From NCBI RefSeq assembly GCF_026240905.1, contig NZ_JAPEVI010000002.1, positions 1-64,000 on the forward strand: DNA of 64,000 nt. Direction: 5' to 3'. Below the pieces are notes generated by a model. The model saw nothing but the letters and a program-made list of their open reading frames with translations. It ran no database searches and was not told the DNA's origin. Position 1 is the first letter of the stretch, and each line of letters opens with the position of its first letter. The position numbers were made by a program, and so were the translations under genes. Shown here piece by piece: positions 26,803 to 38,321 of the stretch. The DNA is from Roseibium salinum. GTDB lineage: Bacteria > Pseudomonadota > Alphaproteobacteria > Rhizobiales > Stappiaceae.

Positions 26803-27738
26803 ATGTCACGCGGTCGTCAAAACCAGGCTCAAGGCCAACTCGAAGCCCAGGGCCAGCTCCAGGGCCAAGCTGAACTTCAGGCACAGTTGCAGGGGCAGGG
26901 CCAGGGCCAGGGCCAAGGCCAGTCTGAACACCAGGGCCAGGGCCAGGGACAGCACCAGGGACAGAGCCAGTATGCCGGTCAGTCCGCCACTCAGGCTGCC
27001 GTCCAGGATCTGCACTCTTCATCCTGGAACGGCAATGCCAATGGCAACGGCAATGCCAACGGAAATCTGAATGGCAACGGCAATGCCAACGGCAACCTGA
27101 ACGGCAACGCCAATATCAACGCCAACGAGAACACGGTCGATAATGAACTCGACAATGATGTCGATAACGACGTCGAAAATACAGTCGAAAGCAAAGTCGA
27201 TACCGAAGTCAATACCAAAGTGGACACCGATATCGACGTGAGCGTCGACCTTGATCTCGATTCCCTGCCCAGCGACAGCGATTTCATCGACGTCGAAGAC
27301 ATGGGCATCGAATGCATCGAGGATTCGGTGGCGCAGGTTGATGCGGTCGTCCAGACGGCGACCAACGGCAACAACTTCAACCTCGACCAGATCAACAACA
27401 TGGCCGACAACGACTACCAGGGCTTTGCCAATGTGTCGTTCGACGGCGGCCAGGCCGGCTATGGCCTGGTCGGTGATATCGGCCTTGGCAATGATGATCT
27501 GGGCGGCGGTTTCGTTCAGGCCGCATCCGCTACCGGCGGCGCATCCAGTGCCAACCACGCAACCGCGAGCATTGGCGATGACGGCACGAACGAAGGTGTC
27601 GGTTCTGCAACCGCGGACGGCATCATCAACCAGGAAGCCTTCACGCAGAACATCGTGATGGGTGCCAACGTCCAGTACAACAACAGCGAAATCGTGGGCG
27701 GCAACCAGTCGGTCTACGACGACAGCGACTCCGTATAA
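26803..27738 (+). CDS. Low-complexity Gln/Gly- and Asn/Gly-rich acidic repeat protein, likely T1SS substrate 1
   Basis: A 311-residue protein of a kind I do not recognise. ATG 26803 has the ribosome site AAGGAG seven bases upstream. Four zones are visible: residues 6-64 are a Gln/Gly tract, residues about 76-108 an Asn/Gly/Ala tract, residues 110-153 eleven consecutive tetrapeptides, and the remainder an acidic, Asn/Gly-rich tail ending YDDSDSV. There is no signal peptide. With the secretion ATPase and adaptor two genes downstream, I infer export by type I secretion. The tail contains DQINNMADND, the same Q-x-N-x3-D-x-D motif repeated in the next gene's product. The composition resembles prion-like or matrix proteins. 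Confidence 0.72.
   Translation: MSRGRQNQAQGQLEAQGQLQGQAELQAQLQGQGQGQGQGQSEHQGQGQGQHQGQSQYAGQSATQAAVQDLHSSSWNGNANGNGNANGNLNGNGNANGNLNGNANINANENTVDNELDNDVDNDVENTVESKVDTEVNTKVDTDIDVSVDLDLDSLPSDSDFIDVEDMGIECIEDSVAQVDAVVQTATNGNNFNLDQINNMADNDYQGFANVSFDGGQAGYGLVGDIGLGNDDLGGGFVQAASATGGASSANHATASIGDDGTNEGVGSATADGIINQEAFTQNIVMGANVQYNNSEIVGGNQSVYDDSDSV
26815..27120 (+). repeat. Gln/Gly then Asn/Gly coding repeats
   Basis: Short tandem repeats within the first repeat-protein gene. Runs of CAGGGC-type hexamers (about 26880-26960) encode Gln-Gly. AACGGCAATGCC-type dodecamers (about 27030-27110) encode Asn-Gly-Asn-Ala. Adjacent units are nearly identical at the DNA level, so length change by strand slippage is plausible. 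Confidence 0.8.
27130..27261 (+). repeat. Eleven tandem tetrapeptides, pattern x-x-[VLI]-[DEN]
   Basis: Eleven uninterrupted four-residue units inside the first repeat protein, starting NTVD and ending LDLD. Position 3 is always Val, Leu or Ile and position 4 is acidic or Asn. Codons vary between units, so the pattern is kept at protein level. A period of four with one buried residue suggests a regular fibre-like or helical element, possibly metal-binding. Confidence 0.75.
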
Positions 27739-27752
27739 CCGGATCAATACCG

Positions 27753-27783
27753 CCGGCTCGCGCAATCACTTTGCGCGGGCCGG
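27753..27783 (+). terminator. Hairpin between repeat-protein genes 1 and 2
   Basis: A 13-bp stem (27753-27765 with 27771-27783, one G-U pair) and a 5-base loop, followed by a moderately T-rich TCGTTGTTGT. It starts 14 bases after the stop of gene 1. It may partly terminate transcription so that the first protein is made in excess. Confidence 0.6.
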
Positions 27784-27889
27784 TCGTTGTTGTGCGCGTA
27801 TCGAGGAAGTACAGGGTTGCGCCCGTTTCGTGGCAAGACCTGGCCGCTTCCCGCCGCAACCAACCCCAGGAACGGGGAAGGAAGCCACG

Positions 27890-29841
27890 ATGTTGCATTC
27901 AGGCGTTACCGAACTGATCTGGCACTTTGCCGGCTACCTGCACCTCACGGACGAAGTTGCCCGTGCGCGGGAGCTATACGAGGACATGAACGCCGCCCAG
28001 GCTGCGTCGGAATATGAACCCGGTAGCCCGGTTGAAGACCAGGATATCGATGACCTGGACGAACTCGGTTCGGGCAGAGGCGACGTGCACTGGCCGGTCT
28101 TCGATCAGGCCGTGCACCTGTCAGCGGCCAATGAGTTGCGGAACGTGGCCGGCGACGTCCAGCCGGCCGATTTCGCCCTTGGCTCGATTTCCCGTTTTCA
28201 CCGGGTGCCGAACGCGGATTTCCAGATCGACATGACCGGCGCCGGCCGGGACACCAGCCTCAGGCGCCAGGAAGGCGGCGACGAGACCAATGTCGACGTC
28301 GATCAGATCAATTTTCTCAGCGACAACGACCGTTTTGGCGTGAGATTCGGTCTCACAACCGAAGAGGTTGCCGGAATCGACATCGCCGCTGAAATCAGTT
28401 CCTTGCGCGGCCTTGCCGCAAGCGCGGGAGCCGAGGAGCTATTCCCCTCGATGAGTGGAAGCATCCCGGACGTCGCGTCAAGCGTGGTTGAGATGCAGAC
28501 AGACAGTGCTGCCTCCGGAGAGGCGCCGGCACATCTGGAGTTCGGCGTTTACGTGGACGGGATCCTGCAAACAGGCGGGCCCGAAGCGGATCCGGAGACC
28601 GAAGAGCCTGTGGGTCAGGAAGACGACGCGCGCCGCGACGGCGCTCCCCGCCCCTCCCCGGCCAGCCAGACGACTGGCAACCGGGCGATCCCGGTTCGCA
28701 GGCGGCCGAGCTCGGCAGCAACACAGCCTATAACGGCGCCGTCATCGTGGATTTCGACGAAGCCTGCGGAACGTTCGTTGTCCTGGGCAACTCGTACCGG
28801 ACCAATGCCGTTGTCCAGACCAATGTCTATTCCGACAGCGATCACGTCAGAATTGGAGGAAACGGGCCGGAGGCCTTTGTTGCCCTCAACCAGAACGAGG
28901 CCACGAATACGGCGGAGCTCTCGCAAGAAGCGCTGCTCGACGGGGTTGTCGACTATCGTGGCCTCACCGGGTTCCACTGGAATATCGATATTTCCTACGG
29001 GAACTACTACGACGTCAAAACCCTGTATCAGGAAAACACCCTCTATTCGAACGACATCGTGTGCCAGACAACGACCGGTGCCTACTATCGGGTGATGGTC
29101 GACGCCAATGGGCAATCAAACACCGTACAGGTGGAAGATTTCGGCAACAGCTATGACCTGATCGTTGTCCTGGGGAACTACCACGCCGGCAATTTCATCC
29201 ATCAGACGAACATCCTGCTCGACAATGACTGGATGACCATGACCGCTCCCGGCGAGGGCGGCGCCCAGACGATCTATGGCGGTCAGAACCAGCTCTCGAA
29301 CGAAGCCGCCATCTCCTATTACGGCCTGGACGGGTATGCCGGCGTATCGTCCGACTTCGAAGCCTTCATCCGGAGCCTGGAGACGCGGGATGATATCCCG
29401 CCCGAGGAATGGTGGTCCTATTCCGGATCGGGCTCGACGGAAATGAATGTGCTGTTCGTGACCGGTGACTATTACGACATCAACTACATCCGTCAGCTCA
29501 ATCTCGTCGCGGACGCCGATGCGGCGATGCAGATCGCAGGCAACGGCACGGACCAGTTCGTTTCGACGGGCGGAAACACCGCAACAAACTTCGCCACCAT
29601 CATCGATGTCGGGGCCTATGGCGATCAGTATGTCGGCGGTGAGGCCTATGAGGACTGGACACTGGTCCAGACCAACATCATCAGCGCCGAAGACGATGAG
29701 GTGATTTACGGAGATTCCAGTGAGCTGGCCAGCGAAGTCGTCGCCTTCGCCTACGCCGGCGAAGAGGAGGAGGGCCAGGTGGATGCCGGGGTGATGCCGA
29801 TGTCCTCAGGCGGCGACGAACTCGGCCACTTAATGGCCTGA
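27890..29841 (+). pseudogene. Acidic repeat protein with five 19-residue Q-x-N repeats, likely T1SS substrate 2 (one-base frameshift)
   Basis: I do not recognise this family. ATG 27890 has a good ribosome site (AAGGAAG). The frame breaks in the C-rich stretch 28646-28659. Adding one C joins the N-terminal 250 residues to a 400-residue C-terminal part, giving 650 residues. No decay is seen on either side. The N-terminal part is helical (ELIWHFAGYLHLTDEVARAREL) and then acidic, with DVDQINFLSDND. The C-terminal part carries five 19-residue repeats separated by linkers, several with a GGNxxxN-like box. There is no signal peptide. Position directly before the type I secretion genes suggests it is exported by them, with the first repeat protein. 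Confidence 0.7.
28786..29694 (+). repeat. Five copies of a 19-residue repeat, G-[NDE]-x-[YH]-x6-Q-x-N-x5-D
   Basis: The units lie at 28786-28842, 28999-29055, 29173-29229, 29464-29520 and 29638-29694. The first reads GNSYRTNAVVQTNVYSDSD and the fourth GDYYDINYIRQLNLVADAD. Gly1, Gln11, Asn13 and Asp19 are invariant, position 4 is Tyr or His, and position 7 is usually Asn. The linkers are of unequal length. The DNA of the units differs clearly, so selection acts on the protein. The Gln/Asn ladder recalls amyloid-forming curlin repeats in style but not in sequence. Confidence 0.8.
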
Positions 29842-29924
29842 ATGCATAATTTTTTGAAGACTTTTTGAGCGTGTACCCGTCTGCCGGTGAAACAAGGCGA
29901 AAACGACGGGTGGGGAGAGTTTCG

Positions 29925-32392
29925 ATGAGGTTTGGCGAGCAGAATGCCGGCCCGAATACCGTTGACAACAGTCGGGCCGAAACCGGAACCGTGGGCCCCC
30001 TTCCCGCTGGAGGGGACACAATTATTCAAACACGTGTCGGCCGCATGCGTGAGCATGACGAAGCGATGGCGCGCCCGGCCGGGAACGGCAATGTCGCCAT
30101 TGCCACGGCCGCACTGCAGCCCGATATCGCTCCATCCGGAGAGACCGGAGCGCCGGACGCTCAAGCCGGGCAGAACGACGCCGAACCGGCGCAAGACGCT
30201 ACAACTCGCCGCGACGGGCAGGCCGAGAACCCGGCGATCGCCGAATTTGTCGAGACCAATGAGGCAATCCGGTCGATGATCGAGGTGGTCGAGGCGGAGC
30301 AGTCTCTGCTGTGGGTCTCCAGCCCGGCCTCGGCAAGGAATGCAAGCGCTCCGAAACTTCGCGTCGTGGACGGCGAAAGTGCGGCCGATGCCGAGGATCC
30401 GGCCGAACAGAACCGGATCGTCAATCTGGAAGCAAAGGCAGCGCCGGATGCCCGTGTCGACCCGGCCCGGCCCGTCAAGGATCAGCCCTTACCGCAGATC
30501 CCCCCTCGCGTTCGGACAAGAGTTCGGATCAGCCCTCACGATCCCTTCGCCAGGCGGATGCCGGGGGCGGACAGGGATCGGGCACCGGTGGCGGGTCGGG
30601 TGGCCGCGGTGGCGGCGGCGGTAGCGGACCGGGTGGCGGCAGGCCGGCCGCCAATCCCAACCTCGGCAAGCGCTACTACGATCAGAACTTTCGCGATGTC
30701 CTGACCAAGGGCCTCGCCGGGTGCCGCCGCGGCCTCGTAACGGTCGCGATCTTTTCCTTTTTCGTCAACGCGCTGGTGCTGAGCATTCCCATCTACCTGT
30801 TCCAGATTTCGGACCGGGTCTTGACCAGCCGGAGCACCGACACGCTGATCATGCTGTCGGCGCTGGTCGTCGGTTTCCTGCTCATCCATGTTCTGCTGGA
30901 CATGGTTCGGCGCGTCCTTCTGATGCGCATTGCCGTCGAAACGGAGACGCGGCTCGGTCCCTCTGTCCTCAGCGCAGCCGCAAGGGCTTCCCAGAACGGC
31001 TCAAACCGCGAATATCAGACTCTCGGCGACCTGCAGCACCTGCGCAATTTCATCACCGGGCCGGTTTTGCTGACCATTTTCGACATTCCAATCATTCCGA
31101 TCTATCTGCTGGCGGTTTACCTCATTCATCCGCAATTGGGCTTCATAGTTACCTGCACGGGCGGTCTCCTGCTGGTGATTGCACTTGTAAACCAGAAGCT
31201 GACGGCAGTTCCTTTCGGCCAGGCCAACGCCTATGGCACGCGGGCGAACCTCCAGGCCGACGCCATGTCGCGCAATGCGCAGGTGATCAACGCCATGGGC
31301 ATGATTCCCGAAGGGGTCCAGATCTGGGGACGCGAGACATTGGAGTCGCTGAAAGCCCAGGTGATTGCCCAGGACCGCAACGTGCTGATGTCGTCCCTGT
31401 CCAAGTTCATCCGCCTGTGCACGCAGATCGGCATGCTCGGCTGGGGAGCATGGCTTGCGCTGAACAGCGAGTTGACGGGCGGCATGCTTATCGCGGCATC
31501 GATTGTCGGCAGCCGTGCTCTGGCTCCGATCGAAGGCGCCATCGAGGGCTGGCGGGGTTTCATCCAGGCCCGCTCTTCCTTTGCCCGCATAAAGACGCTG
31601 CTGCTGAATTCGCCCCTCAACCTGGAACGCCTGCGCCTGCCCCGTGCACAAGGACGGGTGACGGTGGAGCGCGTGCTCTATGTCCCGCCGCCGACGAAGA
31701 AAGTGATCCTGAACGGCGTCTCCTTCCATCTGGAGCCGGGCGAGTCGCTGGCCATCGTCGGTGCTTCCGGTTCGGGCAAATCGACCCTGGGCCGGATGCT
31801 GGTCGGCTCGATCGTGCCGACTGCGGGCAATGTCCGCCTCGATCATATGGATCTTCGCAACTGGGACCCGCGCCAGTTCGGCGAGAGCGTCGGCTACCTG
31901 CCGCAGGACGTGCAGCTGTTCCCTGCGACGATCAAGGCCAACATCGCCCGCATGCGCGAGGACGCCACGGATGAGCAGATCTACGATGCCGCCGATACCG
32001 CCGATGTTCACGAAATGATTTCCCAGTTCGCAACGGGCTATGAAACCATGATCGGCGTCGACGGAGCTCCGCTCTCCGGCGGCCAGAAGCAGAGGATCGG
32101 TCTTGCCAGGGCCTTTTTCGGCGACCCGCGCATGGTCGTGCTGGACGAGCCGAATTCGAATCTCGACGTGCCGGGCGAGCGCGCGCTTGCCCGTGCGCTG
32201 ACGCGGGCCAAGGCCAAGGAAATCACAGTTATCGCAATCACGCAGCGTCCGAGCCTGCTCAGGAATGTCGACAGGATCATGCTGTTGAAGGACGGCACGG
32301 TCCAGGCGCTCGGACCGCGCGACGAGATGATGCAGGTGCTGCGGAACGGTGGCGCAGTGGAAGGCGGAGGCGCGAGCCTTCCGCCGCAATAA
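29925..32392 (+). pseudogene. Type I secretion system permease/ATPase (PrtD family) with long disordered N-terminus (one-base frameshift)
   Basis: The inner-membrane ABC exporter of a type I secretion system. From ATG 29925 (ribosome site GGGGAGAG) the first about 190 residues are acidic and low in hydrophobic residues. The frame breaks at the six-C run 30500-30505, and one extra C restores an 822-residue protein. A Gly-rich linker follows, then a six-helix membrane domain (from GLVTVAIFSFFVNALVLSIP). The ATPase has Walker A GASGSGKST, signature LSGGQKQ and Walker B MVVLDEPNSNLD. There is no C39 peptidase domain, so cargo is not cleaved on export. The N-terminal extension of about 250 residues is unusual for the PrtD group. 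Confidence 0.88.
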
Positions 32393-32450
32393 AGGCACGG
32401 TTGGACCGAAATGAAGCTGTTTCGGGTTCTATTGCAGGAGCATTGAGATC

Positions 32451-33797
32451 ATGTCCTATCTGGCACTAAGCGATGAATGGGACCGCCGGATTGCCAGGGC
32501 GAACCGCAAGGCGAGGCTCTTCGGTTACGGCCTGCTCGTGTGCTGCGTCTTCGGGTTCGGCATCTGGGCCAACGCCGCCCCGATCACCGGTGCCATCGTC
32601 GGCTCGGGCGTGTTCGTGGCCACCGGCGAAAACAAGACCGTCCAGCATTTCGAAGGCGGCGTCATCAAGGAGATCAAGGTGCGCGAGGGGGACCATGTGG
32701 TCCCGGGCCAATCCCTCGTCGTGTTGGATGACGTCGCGCCGCGCGCCGAATTGCGGCGCTTCGAACTGCGACAGGCCCGCCTGGAGGCGATGGAAGCCCG
32801 GTTCCAGGCGGAAATGAACTGGCAGCCGGAAATCAACATGCCGGAAGACCTGGTTCAGCGACGCGGGAACGATCCGGAAATCGCGTCGATCATCGACGCC
32901 CAGAGCCTGACGTTTCAGGCGCGCAGGAACACGCTGATCAGTGAGATCGCAACCCTTGAAGACGGTATAAACGCGCTCAAGGAGCGGATTGGCGGCAGCA
33001 GGATACAGCTCCAGTCGGTCAGGGATCAGCTTGCCTTGATCGATGAGGAGCTGGTCGACAAATCGGCCCTCCTGGACAGCGGTCTGATCCGCAAGCCCGA
33101 GCTTCTTGCCCTGCGCCGTTCAAAGGCCAGCCTGCAAGGCGAAATCGGCCGCCTGACCGGTGAGATCGGTGATGCCCGCGAGCGGATCGCCCGTATCCGG
33201 GAGCAGATCGAAGTGGCGCGCAATACGGCGACCAAGCAGGCGGTGGACCAGCTGCATGAGGTCCACGCCGAACTGGACGACGTGCGCGAGCGGGTGCGCA
33301 CAGCCCGGGCCATTGTCGGGCGCGTCAATATAACCGCTCCCGTTGCGGGCATCGTGGTGAAACTGCGCTACCACACCTCGGGAGGCGTGATCGAGGCAGG
33401 CAAAAGCGTTCTGGAGATCGTTCCGGTCCAGGAAGAAATGCTCATCGAGGTTCCGGTTCGCCCGCAGGATATCGACAGCGTGCAGAAGGGTCAGCGCGCG
33501 ACCGTGCGGCTGACCGCGCTGAGTCAGCGCGTCACGCCCATGGTCGATGGAACCGTAATTTATATTTCCGCCGATGCCCTGCCGAATGACAAGTCCGGTC
33601 AGCAACAATCCGGAGCGCCGGATGCCTATGTCGCCCGTGTCCGTCTGGACCGCTCGGCCCGCGACCTCGTACGCGACTTCACGCCGACACCCGGCATGCC
33701 GGCCGAGGTCTACATCACGACAGCTGAACGGACGTTCTTTGAGTATCTGACCGAACCGGTCCGCGATTCCATGACGCGGGCCTTCCGGGAGCCATGA
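32451..33797 (+). CDS. HlyD-family type I secretion adaptor (PrtE type)
   Basis: A 448-residue membrane fusion protein linking the ABC exporter to an outer-membrane channel. A single N-terminal helix (about residues 25-42) is followed by a lipoyl-like half motif (GSGVFVATGENKTVQHFEGGVIKEI), a long coiled-coil hairpin (about 100-290) and the second lipoyl half (ITAPVAGIVVKLRYHTSGGVI). The C-terminus has the usual VRLTALSQRVTPMVDGTVIYIS. It follows the ATPase gene by 58 bases. No TolC-type outer-membrane gene is seen in this window, so a shared TolC elsewhere is expected. Confidence 0.93.
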   Translation: MSYLALSDEWDRRIARANRKARLFGYGLLVCCVFGFGIWANAAPITGAIVGSGVFVATGENKTVQHFEGGVIKEIKVREGDHVVPGQSLVVLDDVAPRAELRRFELRQARLEAMEARFQAEMNWQPEINMPEDLVQRRGNDPEIASIIDAQSLTFQARRNTLISEIATLEDGINALKERIGGSRIQLQSVRDQLALIDEELVDKSALLDSGLIRKPELLALRRSKASLQGEIGRLTGEIGDARERIARIREQIEVARNTATKQAVDQLHEVHAELDDVRERVRTARAIVGRVNITAPVAGIVVKLRYHTSGGVIEAGKSVLEIVPVQEEMLIEVPVRPQDIDSVQKGQRATVRLTALSQRVTPMVDGTVIYISADALPNDKSGQQQSGAPDAYVARVRLDRSARDLVRDFTPTPGMPAEVYITTAERTFFEYLTEPVRDSMTRAFREP

Positions 33798-34129: not shown

Positions 34130-34642
34130 ATGTCCATTTTATCGGAAAAATACTTTTGGAATGAAGCTGCAGCGTATGAGTTCGTAGAAGCTCAGATGTG
34201 GCCCAAGGGGCCTGTCTGCCCTCATTGCGGAACGTGCGACAATATTCGCAAGCTCAATGGCGCAACGACGCGGATCGGCACCTATAAATGTTACCACTGC
34301 CACCGCCCGTTCACCGTCAAGATCGGGACGATCTTCGAAGCGAGCCGGCTGCCCATGCATGTCTGGTTGCAGTCCATCTATCTGATTGCGCAGTCGGACT
34401 CCCTCATGCCGGTGAGGGAACTGGAACAGGCCCTGGGGATTTCGGCGAAAACGGCCAAGGTGATTGCCCACCGCCTGCACAAGGCAATGCTCGTTTCGCA
34501 GCCGCGCAAGTCGGGCACGAAAGCCGGTCCGAAATCCTGCATTCCGTCTGCGGGCAGGAAACCCGGCCAGCTTGAAGAGGCACCCCCGCAGCGTCGCCTG
34601 CCGGCGATCCGAGACTTTTTCTCATCCATGGGGGCATCGTGA
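34130..34642 (+). CDS. Zinc-ribbon and helix-turn-helix protein derived from an IS1595-type transposase
   Basis: A 170-residue protein that matches the N-terminal half of IS1595-family (ISXO2-like) transposases. It has a zinc ribbon CPHCG at residues 24-28 paired with YKCYHCHRPFTVKIGTIFE, then the conserved WLQSIYLIAQ and a helix-turn-helix ELEQALGISAKTAKVIAHRL. The catalytic DDE domain is absent. The chain ends in a basic, low-complexity tail. It has its own ribosome site (TAGGAG) and is translationally coupled to a small gene. It may be a domesticated DNA-binding protein or simply a transposase remnant. No terminal inverted repeats were found around it. Confidence 0.7.
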   Translation: MSILSEKYFWNEAAAYEFVEAQMWPKGPVCPHCGTCDNIRKLNGATTRIGTYKCYHCHRPFTVKIGTIFEASRLPMHVWLQSIYLIAQSDSLMPVRELEQALGISAKTAKVIAHRLHKAMLVSQPRKSGTKAGPKSCIPSAGRKPGQLEEAPPQRRLPAIRDFFSSMGAS

Positions 34643-34860: not shown

Positions 34861-34899
34861 ATGACCCGCTGGCCGGCAGCACACCGGCCAGCGGGTCAT
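34861..34899. terminator. 16-bp perfect bidirectional hairpin
   Basis: Arms ATGACCCGCTGGCCGG (34861-34876) and its exact complement (34884-34899) around a 7-base loop. It begins right after the stop of the small rightward gene and contains the stop codon of the leftward gene at 34896. It probably ends transcripts from both sides. Confidence 0.75.
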
Positions 34900-35390
34900 C
34901 GATTACATGGTGCCGCGCCGAATATCGGCCGCTCGAAATAGTCCGACCAAAGAGCATGGATATCGCTGTCATCCAGGGCGGGAAGCAAACCGGCCGCATC
35001 CTCTTCCACAGTCGCGGTGGCGGCAGTGGATCCCTGCCCCTGTGCCATCAGGACAGAATAGAGCGTGGCCGCATTCCGGCACCCCTGCTCGAAATCGCCG
35101 TGACTGTCGGCGCTCAGAAGGCAGGCCTCCTCGCCGATGAGCTCCCCGGGAAGTCCGGTAATATCCCGCCATGCGGCGGCCTGAACGATGCCAAGGGCTT
35201 CCGAACCGATCGATTGCACGCGGCGCTGCGCTATCAGAGTGATGAGCATCGTCAGGAAGCCGACCATATAGGCATCGAGCCACTGATCGTCGGCGATGTC
35301 GCCATTGGTGAAGCGCGTACGGTCCACGAGTGGACGAATACTTGTCACCGCGGCCTTTCGGGCCCGCCACGTTTTCCAGAATTCCAGCAT
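34896..35390 (-). CDS. Conserved hypothetical protein, alphaproteobacterial
   Basis: A 164-residue protein when started at ATG 35390 (MLEFWKTWRARKAAV). A longer form from 35441 is possible, and neither start has a clear ribosome site. A hydrophobic stretch AYMVGFLTMLITLIAQ around residue 45-60 and the segment GSEALGIVQAAAWRDITG stand out, as does LIGEEACLLSADSHGDFEQG. It resembles a small rhizobial family without an assigned function, but that is from memory. The gene stands alone, and its stop lies within a terminator hairpin. Confidence 0.6.
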   Translation of the reverse strand: MLEFWKTWRARKAAVTSIRPLVDRTRFTNGDIADDQWLDAYMVGFLTMLITLIAQRRVQSIGSEALGIVQAAAWRDITGLPGELIGEEACLLSADSHGDFEQGCRNAATLYSVLMAQGQGSTAATATVEEDAAGLLPALDDSDIHALWSDYFERPIFGAAPCNR

Positions 35391-35740
35391 GACATTCGCT
35401 TGTGTCACCGAGAGCTCAAATTGACCCTGGAAGGATACCATTTTCAGTATCAGGCCGGGAGAATAAAGACGTTCCCGGGCTCCTGTTTACCTCCAAGACG
35501 GGCCCTTAAGAACACCTTTGCCCGGAACCAAAGTCATGCGTTGGTACCGGCACAGCGCAAATCTTGGAAAATCTTCGAGCTGGCCCGCCGTCTGCGCTGG
35601 TCAACCACTGCTCACCTGAAGTCAGCATGCGCTCTCCGGACGAAGCCTCGTCCAATGTTGACGTCCCTCAATCCTTTCCGCCGGTTTCGAACCGGATCAC
35701 ATCAAGGGTAATACCCAAGCCAGAAAAGTGCGAGAACGCC
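35391..35740. other. Gene-free stretch between divergent hypothetical genes
   Basis: About 350 bases between the leftward hypothetical gene and the rightward possible HEPN-like gene. Open frames cross it, but none has a ribosome site or plausible composition. I see no repeat or terminator in it. Confidence 0.4.
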
Positions 35741-36313
35741 ATGCCCCACCTTCCGCAAAGCCCGGACTTCGCCAGCATCGACGCAGTCGCGTCGACGACC
35801 GCAGAACAGCGGACGACCGTCCTGGCTCTGATCGGCAACCTGGTGTTCAGTTGGTCGAACAACGAGAGCCTGTTCATCTATCTTCTCGCCATCCTGCTGC
35901 AGACGGACGAGGTTTCGGCAGCCGTCGTGTTCAGCACGCTGAATACCACACGGGCGCGCCTCGACGTCATCCAGCGTCTCGCCCGCGTCAAGGTCCAGGA
36001 CGCCACGGTGGCAAAGGAGCTGGACAGCCTGATCCGGCGCTTCAACAAGGCCAGCCGGGTACGCAACGAGTTCAATCACTGCCTTTATTCACTTGGGCCA
36101 AATGGTGAAATCGCCCAGACGCAATCCATGAAGCTGCAAGAGGTGAAGGGGCAGTTGAAGTGGGGTGAGATCAAACCCATGGACGAGTTGCGCATGAAAC
36201 AGATGGTCAAGGCGATCCAGGACCTCAAAACACTCAATCGCGACATCTGGACGTTCCTGCCGAGGCTCGAGCAGGCCTGCGCAAAAGGAAAGCCGGCTCA
36301 ACGGGACGTATAA
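35741..36313 (+). CDS. Hypothetical helical protein with HEPN-like RNxxxH motif
   Basis: A 190-residue all-helical protein. The segment NNESLFIYLLAILLQTDEV is followed by two further helices and then RVRNEFNHCLYSLG at about residues 114-127. The R-x4-H pattern in RNEFNH, between helices, is the usual mark of HEPN-fold proteins, many of which are RNases in toxin or defence systems. No antitoxin gene (such as a MNT nucleotidyltransferase) is adjacent, so a toxin role is not supported. The start ATG 35741 was chosen for composition, and a weak GAGAA lies upstream. Confidence 0.55.
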   Translation: MPHLPQSPDFASIDAVASTTAEQRTTVLALIGNLVFSWSNNESLFIYLLAILLQTDEVSAAVVFSTLNTTRARLDVIQRLARVKVQDATVAKELDSLIRRFNKASRVRNEFNHCLYSLGPNGEIAQTQSMKLQEVKGQLKWGEIKPMDELRMKQMVKAIQDLKTLNRDIWTFLPRLEQACAKGKPAQRDV

Positions 36314-36335: not shown

Positions 36336-37106
36336 TCACGGTCCTTGAAACGATGACGAATGCTGCTGCGGCAGCACAGACGACGGCGGCGACCAGTTCT
36401 GATCAAGATAACGGCCGTCGAACTGCGCAAAGAGCGCTGCCTGCTCCTCGTCAACGATTTCAACTTCGCCATGACGGATGTGAAACAGATTGGTCTCGCG
36501 CAGATAGCGCAGCACGCGGTTGAGATGTGCCGGTGTCAGGCCGAGCGCATCGGCGATCTGGCTTTGACTGAGCGGGCAAGCGTAGATGCTCCCGGAGCAT
36601 TTGCCGATCAGTTGAAGACGGGCCTTGAGTTCGAGGAAAAAATGCGCGACCCGCTCGGCACCCGGACGCCGGCCGACGCTGGCGAGACGTTCTACAAGCA
36701 GAGCCTCGTCTCGCGAACCCGACCAGAGAATGCCGGCAGCAACGCGGGGCGTTTCGTCGAGCAAGTCAAGCAGCGTATTTGAATCGAGCTCGTGAACCGC
36801 GGACACGTTGAGCAAGGAGCCCCTCAGGTCTGCGCTGCGCAGCATCAGACCACGCAAGCCGACAATATCGCCCGGCACCGCAATGTCGACGATCTGGCGC
36901 GCGCCGTTCGCGAGCATACTGAACGTGAAAGCCCAGCCTTCGGCGACAAGAAACGCCTTCTGCCGGCCGGACTGCCTGAAACGCAACTCCTCACCCTTTT
37001 CCAGTATTTTGGGTCTTCCAAGGACACGCGCGAATGCGGCAAATTCATTGGGCGGAATAGTGGAGAAAGCGTCGAGCTTTCTTTTGAAATTGGCAATAGT
37101 ATGCAT
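36336..37106 (-). CDS. Crp/Fnr-family transcriptional regulator
   Basis: A 256-residue regulator with an N-terminal cyclic-nucleotide-type beta-roll (residues 25-120; VAEGWAFTFSMLANGARQIVDIAVPGDIVGL) and a C-terminal helix-turn-helix, LSQSQIADALGLTPAHLNRVLRYL. It lacks the Fnr-type cysteines near the N-terminus, so it is not an oxygen-sensing iron-sulfur Fnr. This layout is common for rhizobial Crp-like proteins of unknown signal. A perfect 7+4+7 inverted repeat lies 120 bases upstream of its start. Confidence 0.9.
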   Translation of the reverse strand: MHTIANFKRKLDAFSTIPPNEFAAFARVLGRPKILEKGEELRFRQSGRQKAFLVAEGWAFTFSMLANGARQIVDIAVPGDIVGLRGLMLRSADLRGSLLNVSAVHELDSNTLLDLLDETPRVAAGILWSGSRDEALLVERLASVGRRPGAERVAHFFLELKARLQLIGKCSGSIYACPLSQSQIADALGLTPAHLNRVLRYLRETNLFHIRHGEVEIVDEEQAALFAQFDGRYLDQNWSPPSSVLPQQHSSSFQGP

Positions 37107-37718: not shown

Positions 37719-38321
37719 TCAGGAGATCACGAAATAGCCGTCCGGATTGTCCTGAAGGTCATTCACGTCAACATTGTTGAGCGTCACCGTGTCGCCGTGA
37801 CCGAGATCGATCACGGTATCGGCGCCCACCTGGGTTGCCCTTGCGGCGACATCGGCCGGCGACGATATGCCGGTATCGTTGATGTTTGTGGAGATTTGCA
37901 ACATGTCCCCGGCTTCGAAATCCATGACCGCATCGTGACCGCCGCCGCCGGTGAACACGAATACATCACTGCCGCTGCCTCCGAACATAACGTCATGGCC
38001 GGCGCCGCCGTCCAGGATGTCCGTGCCGTCACTGCCGAAGAGAATGTCATGACCGTCGCCGCCGGCAAGGTAGTCGTTACCCTCGCCGCCCATAAGGCTA
38101 TCGTGGCCCTTGTCGCCTGAGAGCACGTCGTCACCGCCTTCGCCAAATACCACGTCGTGACCTTTGCCGCCGGACAGGACGTCATCGCCGTCGCCTCCGA
38201 AGAGGGTATCGCGCCCGCCGTTTCCGAAGAGGACATCGTCGCCCTCCAAGCCGAATATGAAGTCGTGAGATTGGGTGCCTTCCAGGAAGTCCTGAAAGGC
38301 ACTGCCTTCTATTGTTGCCAT
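37719..38321 (-). CDS. RTX calcium-binding repeat protein
   Basis: A 200-residue protein made largely of RTX nonapeptides (GGxGxDxxx type): GLEGDDVLFGNGGRDTLFG is near residue 24, and further units such as GGEGNDYLAGGDGHDILFG continue to about residue 125. A C-terminal region (VFVFTGGGGHDAVMDFEAGD) resembles the secretion-signal-bearing end of type I substrates. There is no enzymatic domain. It is probably secreted by a type I system, and the nearest one is encoded 4 kb upstream, though that link is inference. The high share of His in place of Asn at repeat position 5 (GHD) is notable. It has its own terminator. Confidence 0.9.
   Translation of the reverse strand: MATIEGSAFQDFLEGTQSHDFIFGLEGDDVLFGNGGRDTLFGGDGDDVLSGGKGHDVVFGEGGDDVLSGDKGHDSLMGGEGNDYLAGGDGHDILFGSDGTDILDGGAGHDVMFGGSGSDVFVFTGGGGHDAVMDFEAGDMLQISTNINDTGISSPADVAARATQVGADTVIDLGHGDTVTLNNVDVNDLQDNPDGYFVIS

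Follow-up and report, generated by a model that had tools for sequence, protein, structure and literature searches.

A probably dedicated type I secretion locus for two low-complexity or repeat proteins in Roseibium salinum: a candidate fibre or matrix system

Introduction

Type I exporters have mostly been studied with RTX substrates, and exporters of the PrtD type often carry RTX proteins. We analysed a stretch of 64,000 nucleotides of Roseibium salinum (contig NZ_JAPEVI010000002.1, positions 1 to 64,000; here denoted the window), in which two genes, denoted P1 and P2, lie upstream of genes encoding a PrtD-type ABC exporter and a HlyD-type adaptor. An original prediction, made from the letters of the window, proposed that the exporter serves P1 and P2 and that the two proteins form an extracellular fibre, matrix or surface layer. 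The comparisons presented here support this function in part: export is likely to be dedicated, whereas the fibre or matrix is a role that we infer.

The locus resembles the PrtD/HlyD type I systems (PrsDE of rhizobia, PrtDE and AprDE) in that its exporter and adaptor score above the TIGR01842 and TIGR01843 cut-offs and in that the presumed substrate genes lie upstream. It differs from them in that the presumed substrates P1 and P2 lack RTX repeats, the exporter belongs to its own branch among 52 PrtD exporters and a gene for a helical protein is co-inherited with it. With curli (CsgA/CsgB) and Fap (FapC/FapB), which are exported via CsgG and FapF, the locus shares the idea of an abundant subunit with a minor partner; unlike these systems, type I export is proposed here, and no curlin Pfam match was obtained with P1, the P2 pieces or 15 P2 relatives.

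Among proteins encoded next to a type I exporter, the nearest non-classical acidic repeat protein known to us is BapA of Paracoccus denitrificans. According to PMC5588039, BapA is needed for biofilm and its gene lies just upstream of the exporter genes (BapBCD). In both systems an acidic low-complexity protein is encoded beside type I exporter genes (PMC5588039); in contrast to BapA, P1 and P2 have no long Asp-Ala dipeptide repeats, as read from their sequences. Likewise PrtD-type and without a substrate found are ToaDE and TobDE of R. leguminosarum 3841, for which PMC2275737 states that double and triple mutants revealed no substrate. ToaDE is reported to have conserved synteny among R. leguminosarum, S. 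meliloti and A. tumefaciens (PMC2275737). A record of S. meliloti AK57 has one place above the PrtD cut-off, the P1-P2 one, which first suggested ToaDE. However, P2 is missing from 7 of the 10 listed f24 genomes (a family that we infer to be Rhizobiaceae), and ToaDE, given its synteny in those three species, is therefore probably a system other than P1-P2.

Gene order and co-inheritance

The plus strand of the window holds, in order, P1, P2, the exporter and the adaptor, in agreement with the predicted order and shared strand, and the same order recurs in related bacteria. Scores of 694 bits against TIGR01842 (cut-off 510) for the exporter and 380 bits against TIGR01843 (cut-off 209) for the adaptor confirm the identities given to them before. 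The features are listed below; L and G followed by a number denote loci and genomes, respectively.

26803..27738, plus strand: P1, 311 aa; N-terminal half acidic and of low complexity (Q/G and N/G), C-terminal region conserved (AFTQNIVMGANVQYN...), from alignments
27752..27784, plus strand: hairpin 3' of P1, 14 pairs, two of them G-T
27890..29841, plus strand: P2, whole span, in two frames in the window
27890..28650, plus strand: N-terminal part of P2, in a frame of its own; the mechanical open reading frame (ORF) extends to 29095; the start matches P2 of L029 (M...GVTELIWHFAGY)
28645..29841, plus strand: P2 C-terminal part, in the other frame; beta-rich repeats with the paired motifs GxNxxxNxAxI and G...N.I.Q.N (invariant columns)
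29925..30500, plus strand: probable N-terminal linker of the exporter, in a frame that differs from that of the PrtD core (codon-phase analysis)
30311..32392, plus strand: PrtD-type type I secretion permease/ATPase, mechanical ORF with core at 30716-32338 (TIGR01842, tree)
32451..33797, plus strand: HlyD-type periplasmic adaptor (TIGR01843); homologue beside PrtD in 20 of 20 loci (L029-L048)
35564..36313, plus strand: fifth co-inherited gene; product cytoplasmic-looking and helical by sequence, with W[ST]N[NT]ES and [RK]NxxxH; homology from ~35750

P2 was found in 21 of 249 genomes of the order, that of the window included, by a search with its C-terminal part, and a P2 profile gave the same 21; this and the following genome counts cover related species and are not independent, and in the large samples (249 of the order, 289 of the class, 398 of the phylum) the initial search pass scored only some of the candidates. 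A profile built from the C-terminal 100 residues of P1 detected P1 in 20 of those 21 genomes and in no other of the 249. Every match lay at the P1 position before P2, in G104 on a contig end that also holds the start of P2, and in G110, the P2 genome with no P1 match, a Q/N/D-rich ORF occupies the P1 place. The original prediction left it to a check whether the homologues neighbour PrtD/HlyD genes, and in the order sample they do: a PrtD homologue was present at all 20 non-self P2 places (at L010 as 36 aa at the edge only, in L030 whole), with HlyD also in all 20 longer stretches. Six of the seven loci found with P1 in named genomes hold all four genes, and the seventh (L001) is truncated by the end of its contig just after P1.

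The fifth gene follows the same distribution. Its strong matches fall in exactly the 20 P1 genomes of the 249, with one weak match elsewhere (G092, E 1.6e-7), and homologues are present in 27 of 30 P1-P2 loci, a set in which one contig occurs twice (as L003 and L032) and several members are closely related; no homologue was seen in L036 and L039, both at contig ends, or in L048. This gene was overlooked in the original prediction and, judged by sequence, is co-inherited with the cluster and encodes an undescribed protein. Altogether, the sequence comparisons give good support to a module of five genes that includes a dedicated exporter.

Outside the order sample, P2 was detected in 20 of 87 genomes of the family, the window's own included, with PrtD in 18 of 19 fetched loci, the other being a 3-kb contig. 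The class sample yielded 2 P2 genomes of 289, one being the window's own, and the phylum sample 8 of 398, all of the window's class. P2 also occurs in 30 records of a plasmid collection, mostly from Ensifer, Sinorhizobium, Paracoccus and Sulfitobacter, of which the S. meliloti record L049 is chromosome-sized. Such a patchy distribution in order and family, together with the plasmid-collection records, would suit effectors or bacteriocin-like proteins that are secreted to act on other cells. We regard this explanation as very unlikely, as no enzyme, toxin or lectin domain was found in P1, P2 or 15 P2 relatives, low-complexity P1 fits structural material, and P1, P2 and two neighbours gave no defence-library match, though no search was aimed at immunity genes.

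A separate branch of PrtD exporters

In a tree of 52 PrtD cores, one branch (100/97) splits 25 exporters of P1-P2 loci from 27 others, and since the 25 share one branch, the exporter looks dedicated to such loci. The 25 are the window and 24 P1-P2 loci; near-copies and further family members were not entered, and L066 was omitted because of its short length. The 27 others are the remainder of 30 PrtD loci after removal of two duplicates of P1-P2 places and transfer of one P1-P2 locus to the other set, and PrtD places with no fetched locus were excluded. The family (87) and order (249) searches showed P2 in no genome that contributed one of these 27. The window exporter groups with another genus of its own family, while copies from two genomes of its own genus (L072 and L138) group with others from f24 and Neorhizobium, and therefore horizontal spread is likely.

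The genome has four places above the PrtD cut-off, this locus and three more, and two TolC-type channels (TIGR01844, above cut-off) are encoded elsewhere; no channel gene was seen adjoining the four genes. About 4 kb from the cluster lies an RTX gene:

37719..38321, minus strand: RTX repeat protein, 200 aa (PF00353), ~4 kb from the cluster on the opposite strand

Its proximity raises the alternative that P1 and P2 are cytoplasmic or regulatory proteins and not substrates, the exporter moving something else, such as this RTX protein. We consider this about as improbable as the effector explanation, if not slightly more so. The RTX gene has a homologue in 0 of 30 P1-P2 loci, the same count as the LysR-type gene with which it served as a flank control, and was set aside as the exporter's substrate; with three further PrtD places in the genome, the RTX protein has other possible exporters. 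In addition, within the sampled genomes P1 and P2 occur only with exporters of this branch. We judge export of P1 and P2 to be likely.

The P1 and P2 proteins

P1 starts at ATG 26803, with AGGAG 7 bases upstream, and consists of Q/G and N/G tracts, an acidic V/D/N stretch and, last, the conserved region; the tracts and the acidity (pI ~4.05) had been correctly predicted. The 'prion-like' composition that was ascribed to both proteins fits P1 of the window, which has 33 Q/N in 80 residues; a count of 30 or more occurs in none of 313 mechanical control ORFs. It does not fit P2, which is not Q/N-rich, and because only 18 of 30 P1 relatives (near-copies included) reach at least 30 Q/N per 80 residues, Q/N richness is not the conserved trait of P1; those inspected among the 12 below the threshold are rich in Asp or Gly instead. 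Both families have a pI near 4 and few cysteines (means of 0.29% in P1 and 0.20% in P2, compared with 1.17% in 327 control ORFs); here and in the Q/N and C-terminus comparisons the controls are mechanical ORFs, not checked genes, and L006, L031, L032, L037, L043, L045 and L046, which are near-copies or uncertain, are excluded from the pI, Cys and C-terminus counts.

Neither P1 nor the P2 pieces gave a meaningful match in Pfam or NCBIfam (best E values 0.19 and 0.052). P1 and the window P2 pieces gave no match to PF00353, and none to Pfam curlin at E 1. The absence of RTX repeats and of other Pfam domains noted in the original prediction is thus confirmed for P1 and the P2 pieces, and it extends to 15 P2 relatives, which showed no Pfam match at E 0.01, curlin and RTX (PF00353) included. 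No Sec signal was seen at the N-termini of P1 and P2, by reading residues only. At E 0.001 a database search gave 243 P1-like proteins, 120 of them listed, without genomic context. Database names of P1 and P2 relatives are mostly none or 'hypothetical protein', one P2 relative being also named 'Type I secretion protein', and we found no published description of the P1-P2 pair in the open-licence literature searched.

P1 is present in tandem copies in genomes G030, G109, G140, G435 and G002, as expected for a structural subunit, and is presumed to be the main secreted subunit. Tandem P1-type genes were seen 5' of P2 in L044-L046, L157 and L158, and the copies of L157 are much alike in their N-terminal parts.

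In relatives P2 is a single frame, mostly of 636-714 aa: 636 aa in Blastochloris sulfoviridis (L002) and 672, 651, 684 and 689 aa in L003, L004, L005 and L007. The exceptions are L034 (broken), L037 (miscalled by the script) and L048 (divergent). The protein is acidic and repetitive, and both the invariant columns of the alignment and a structure model of the L002 relative indicate repeated beta units. Top-ranked structural neighbours of the P2 model include FapC and CsgA, without significance. The last eight residues of P2 comprise an acidic residue followed by spaced hydrophobic residues: the pattern [DE]x[LMIFV]xx[VIMLFT][LMVTSFIH]x is present in 18 of 20 P2 proteins and in 1 of 327 control ORFs. 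As the proteins scored are also those from which the pattern was derived, the 18 of 20 are not independent; common descent contributes as well. These residues look similar to the C-terminal signals of PrtD substrates.

Two frame changes in the window

Contrary to the original prediction, P2 of the window is not one open frame: the N-terminal part (from ATG 27890) and the C-terminal part (to 29841) lie in different frames. The P2 profile aligns to 27926-28675 in one frame and to 28645-29805 in another, and tblastn with relatives gives the same picture, the switch of homology lying at ~28645-28675; homology of the C-terminal part begins 5' of GTG 28747. According to codon-position GC, the frame changes again close to 30.5 kb, upstream of the PrtD core, so that the exporter gene probably starts at ~29925, at an ATG preceded by a ribosome-site-like sequence, with a long linker ahead of the core. 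Relative L029 has an open P/A/E-rich stretch at the position of the linker.

Two frame changes within 2 kb could mean that the locus of the window is decaying, with P2 and the exporter as pseudogenes, which would be compatible with any of the other explanations. We view decay as possible, though not likely. Each change coincides with a C-rich run, a kind of sequence in which indel errors are common in assemblies, and the codon phase is clear on either side of it; decay would moreover leave the system as such untouched, given that it is intact in relatives (e.g. the 636-aa P2 frame of L002). Assembly indels are the probable cause of both changes, neither of which had been noticed in the original prediction.

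Programmed frameshifting in P2 was considered and rejected: the second break occurs at another C-run, in the exporter gene, P2 is one frame in G590, the nearest relative found (70% identity in the C-terminal part), and P2 of G076 is broken twice. The two breaks in the G076 gene fall within L034 8480-10469.

A recurrent hairpin between P1 and P2

A hairpin had been predicted 3' of P1, with an excess of P1 as its effect. The hairpin exists, with its two G-T pairs among 14; the T-run of its tail is weak, and there is no excess of terminator-like sites (6 in the window region, compared with 6.6 in shuffles), a strong T-run being mostly missing. For these reasons we consider protection of the mRNA end or partial attenuation more probable than complete termination.

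In 15 of 19 P1-P2 gaps, the window's being among those tested, there is a perfect Watson-Crick stem of 9 pairs or more, where shuffles lead one to expect 0.13. Shorter stems are those of the window (7), L033 (7), L047 (8) and L049 (6). The 19 gaps include close pairs, and L006, L032, L034, L036, L037, L039, L043, L046, L048 and L050, as near-copies or uncertain cases, were set apart before the count. Because the gap sequences differ between more distant loci, it is the structure that appears conserved rather than the sequence.

Proposed mechanism

Comparison between loci shows the co-inheritance, the exporter branch, the recurrent hairpin and the conserved extreme C-terminus of P2. For export itself, the P1:P2 ratio, assembly and function we infer the following. 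P1 would be the abundant subunit, low-complexity, acidic and probably disordered, and its conserved C-terminal region may hold an export signal and an assembly element. P2 would be a beta-rich repeat protein with a candidate PrtD-type C-terminal signal. PrtD, HlyD and a TolC-type channel from elsewhere in the genome would move both proteins across the envelope in one step, and the hairpin would keep P1 mRNA, and hence P1, in excess over P2. Outside the cell, P2 would probably act as scaffold or nucleator and P1 as the bulk material of a fibre or matrix, while the product of the fifth gene probably has an intracellular role in control or chaperoning. A structural extracellular role for P1 and P2 is moderately likely, and we favour, with slightly less assurance, the complete proposal that a dedicated type I system exports two non-RTX proteins which build an extracellular fibre or matrix.

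Export may be correct and the product a different one, a surface layer or adhesin, with P2 as the surface protein and P1 as a spacer or anchor. RsaA of Caulobacter is a surface-layer precedent for such export. The repeated beta units of P2 would agree with this, as would BapA, which is encoded just upstream of its exporter genes and needed for biofilm (PMC5588039) and so illustrates that a protein of this kind can be a biofilm adhesin. However, P1 is highly variable in its low-complexity part and is present in tandem copies in some genomes, a better fit to bulk material than to an anchor, and P2, at ~640-715 aa, is short for an adhesin that reaches outward. We therefore judge a surface layer or adhesin to be rather unlikely, less so than the effector and non-substrate explanations.

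A more specific form of the fibre or matrix proposal is an undescribed type I-secreted functional-amyloid or fibre system, in which disordered P1 would be nucleated by a beta-solenoid P2, the ratio would be set at the hairpin and the fifth gene product, perhaps HEPN-like with its RNxxxH motif, might regulate that transcript at the RNA level. In this full form the idea is speculative and, on present sequences, improbable.

The locus is of interest as part of a PrtD lineage that occurs across many alphaproteobacterial families, rhizobia and a phototroph among them, and is inherited with two protein families that lack described domains and with an undescribed helical gene. It supplies testable substrates for exporters of an orphan lineage, is a candidate system for extracellular material and shows a hairpin placed recurrently after the presumed major subunit.

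The fifth gene and other neighbours

The RNxxxH motif is present in 27 of 28 fifth-gene proteins. We take it to recall HEPN domains, which are all-helical and carry an Rx4-6H motif; the fifth-gene protein gave no match to Pfam HEPN models and no PDB sequence match at E 1. Further genes lie around it in the window:

34130..34642, plus strand: IS1595-type zinc-ribbon protein, 170 aa (PF12760); homologues in 9 of 30 P1-P2 loci
34896..35441, minus strand: accessory gene of unassigned function, 181 aa, no Pfam match; homologues in 12 of 30 P1-P2 loci
36336..37106, minus strand: accessory Crp/Fnr-type regulator (PF13545 above cut-off, PF00027 just below); homologues in 4 of 30 P1-P2 loci

These neighbours are optional, as are a GNAT-TPR protein (12 of the 30 loci) and a LuxR-type regulator (13). 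No locus of this set was found to hold both the zinc-ribbon and the LuxR-type gene, which might mean that one takes the place of the other. The IS1595-type zinc-ribbon protein is 73-78% identical in L029-L031, no transposase core was matched in it, and it is possibly a domesticated DNA-binding regulator.

In L158 (3256-4496, minus strand) the RNxxxH gene overlaps the adjoining LuxR-type regulator gene by a few bases, which suggests that the two are on one transcript. In L002 (14276-16210) a GNAT domain (PF13480) fused to TPR repeats is encoded beside the cluster, and it could modify an exported protein or a polysaccharide.

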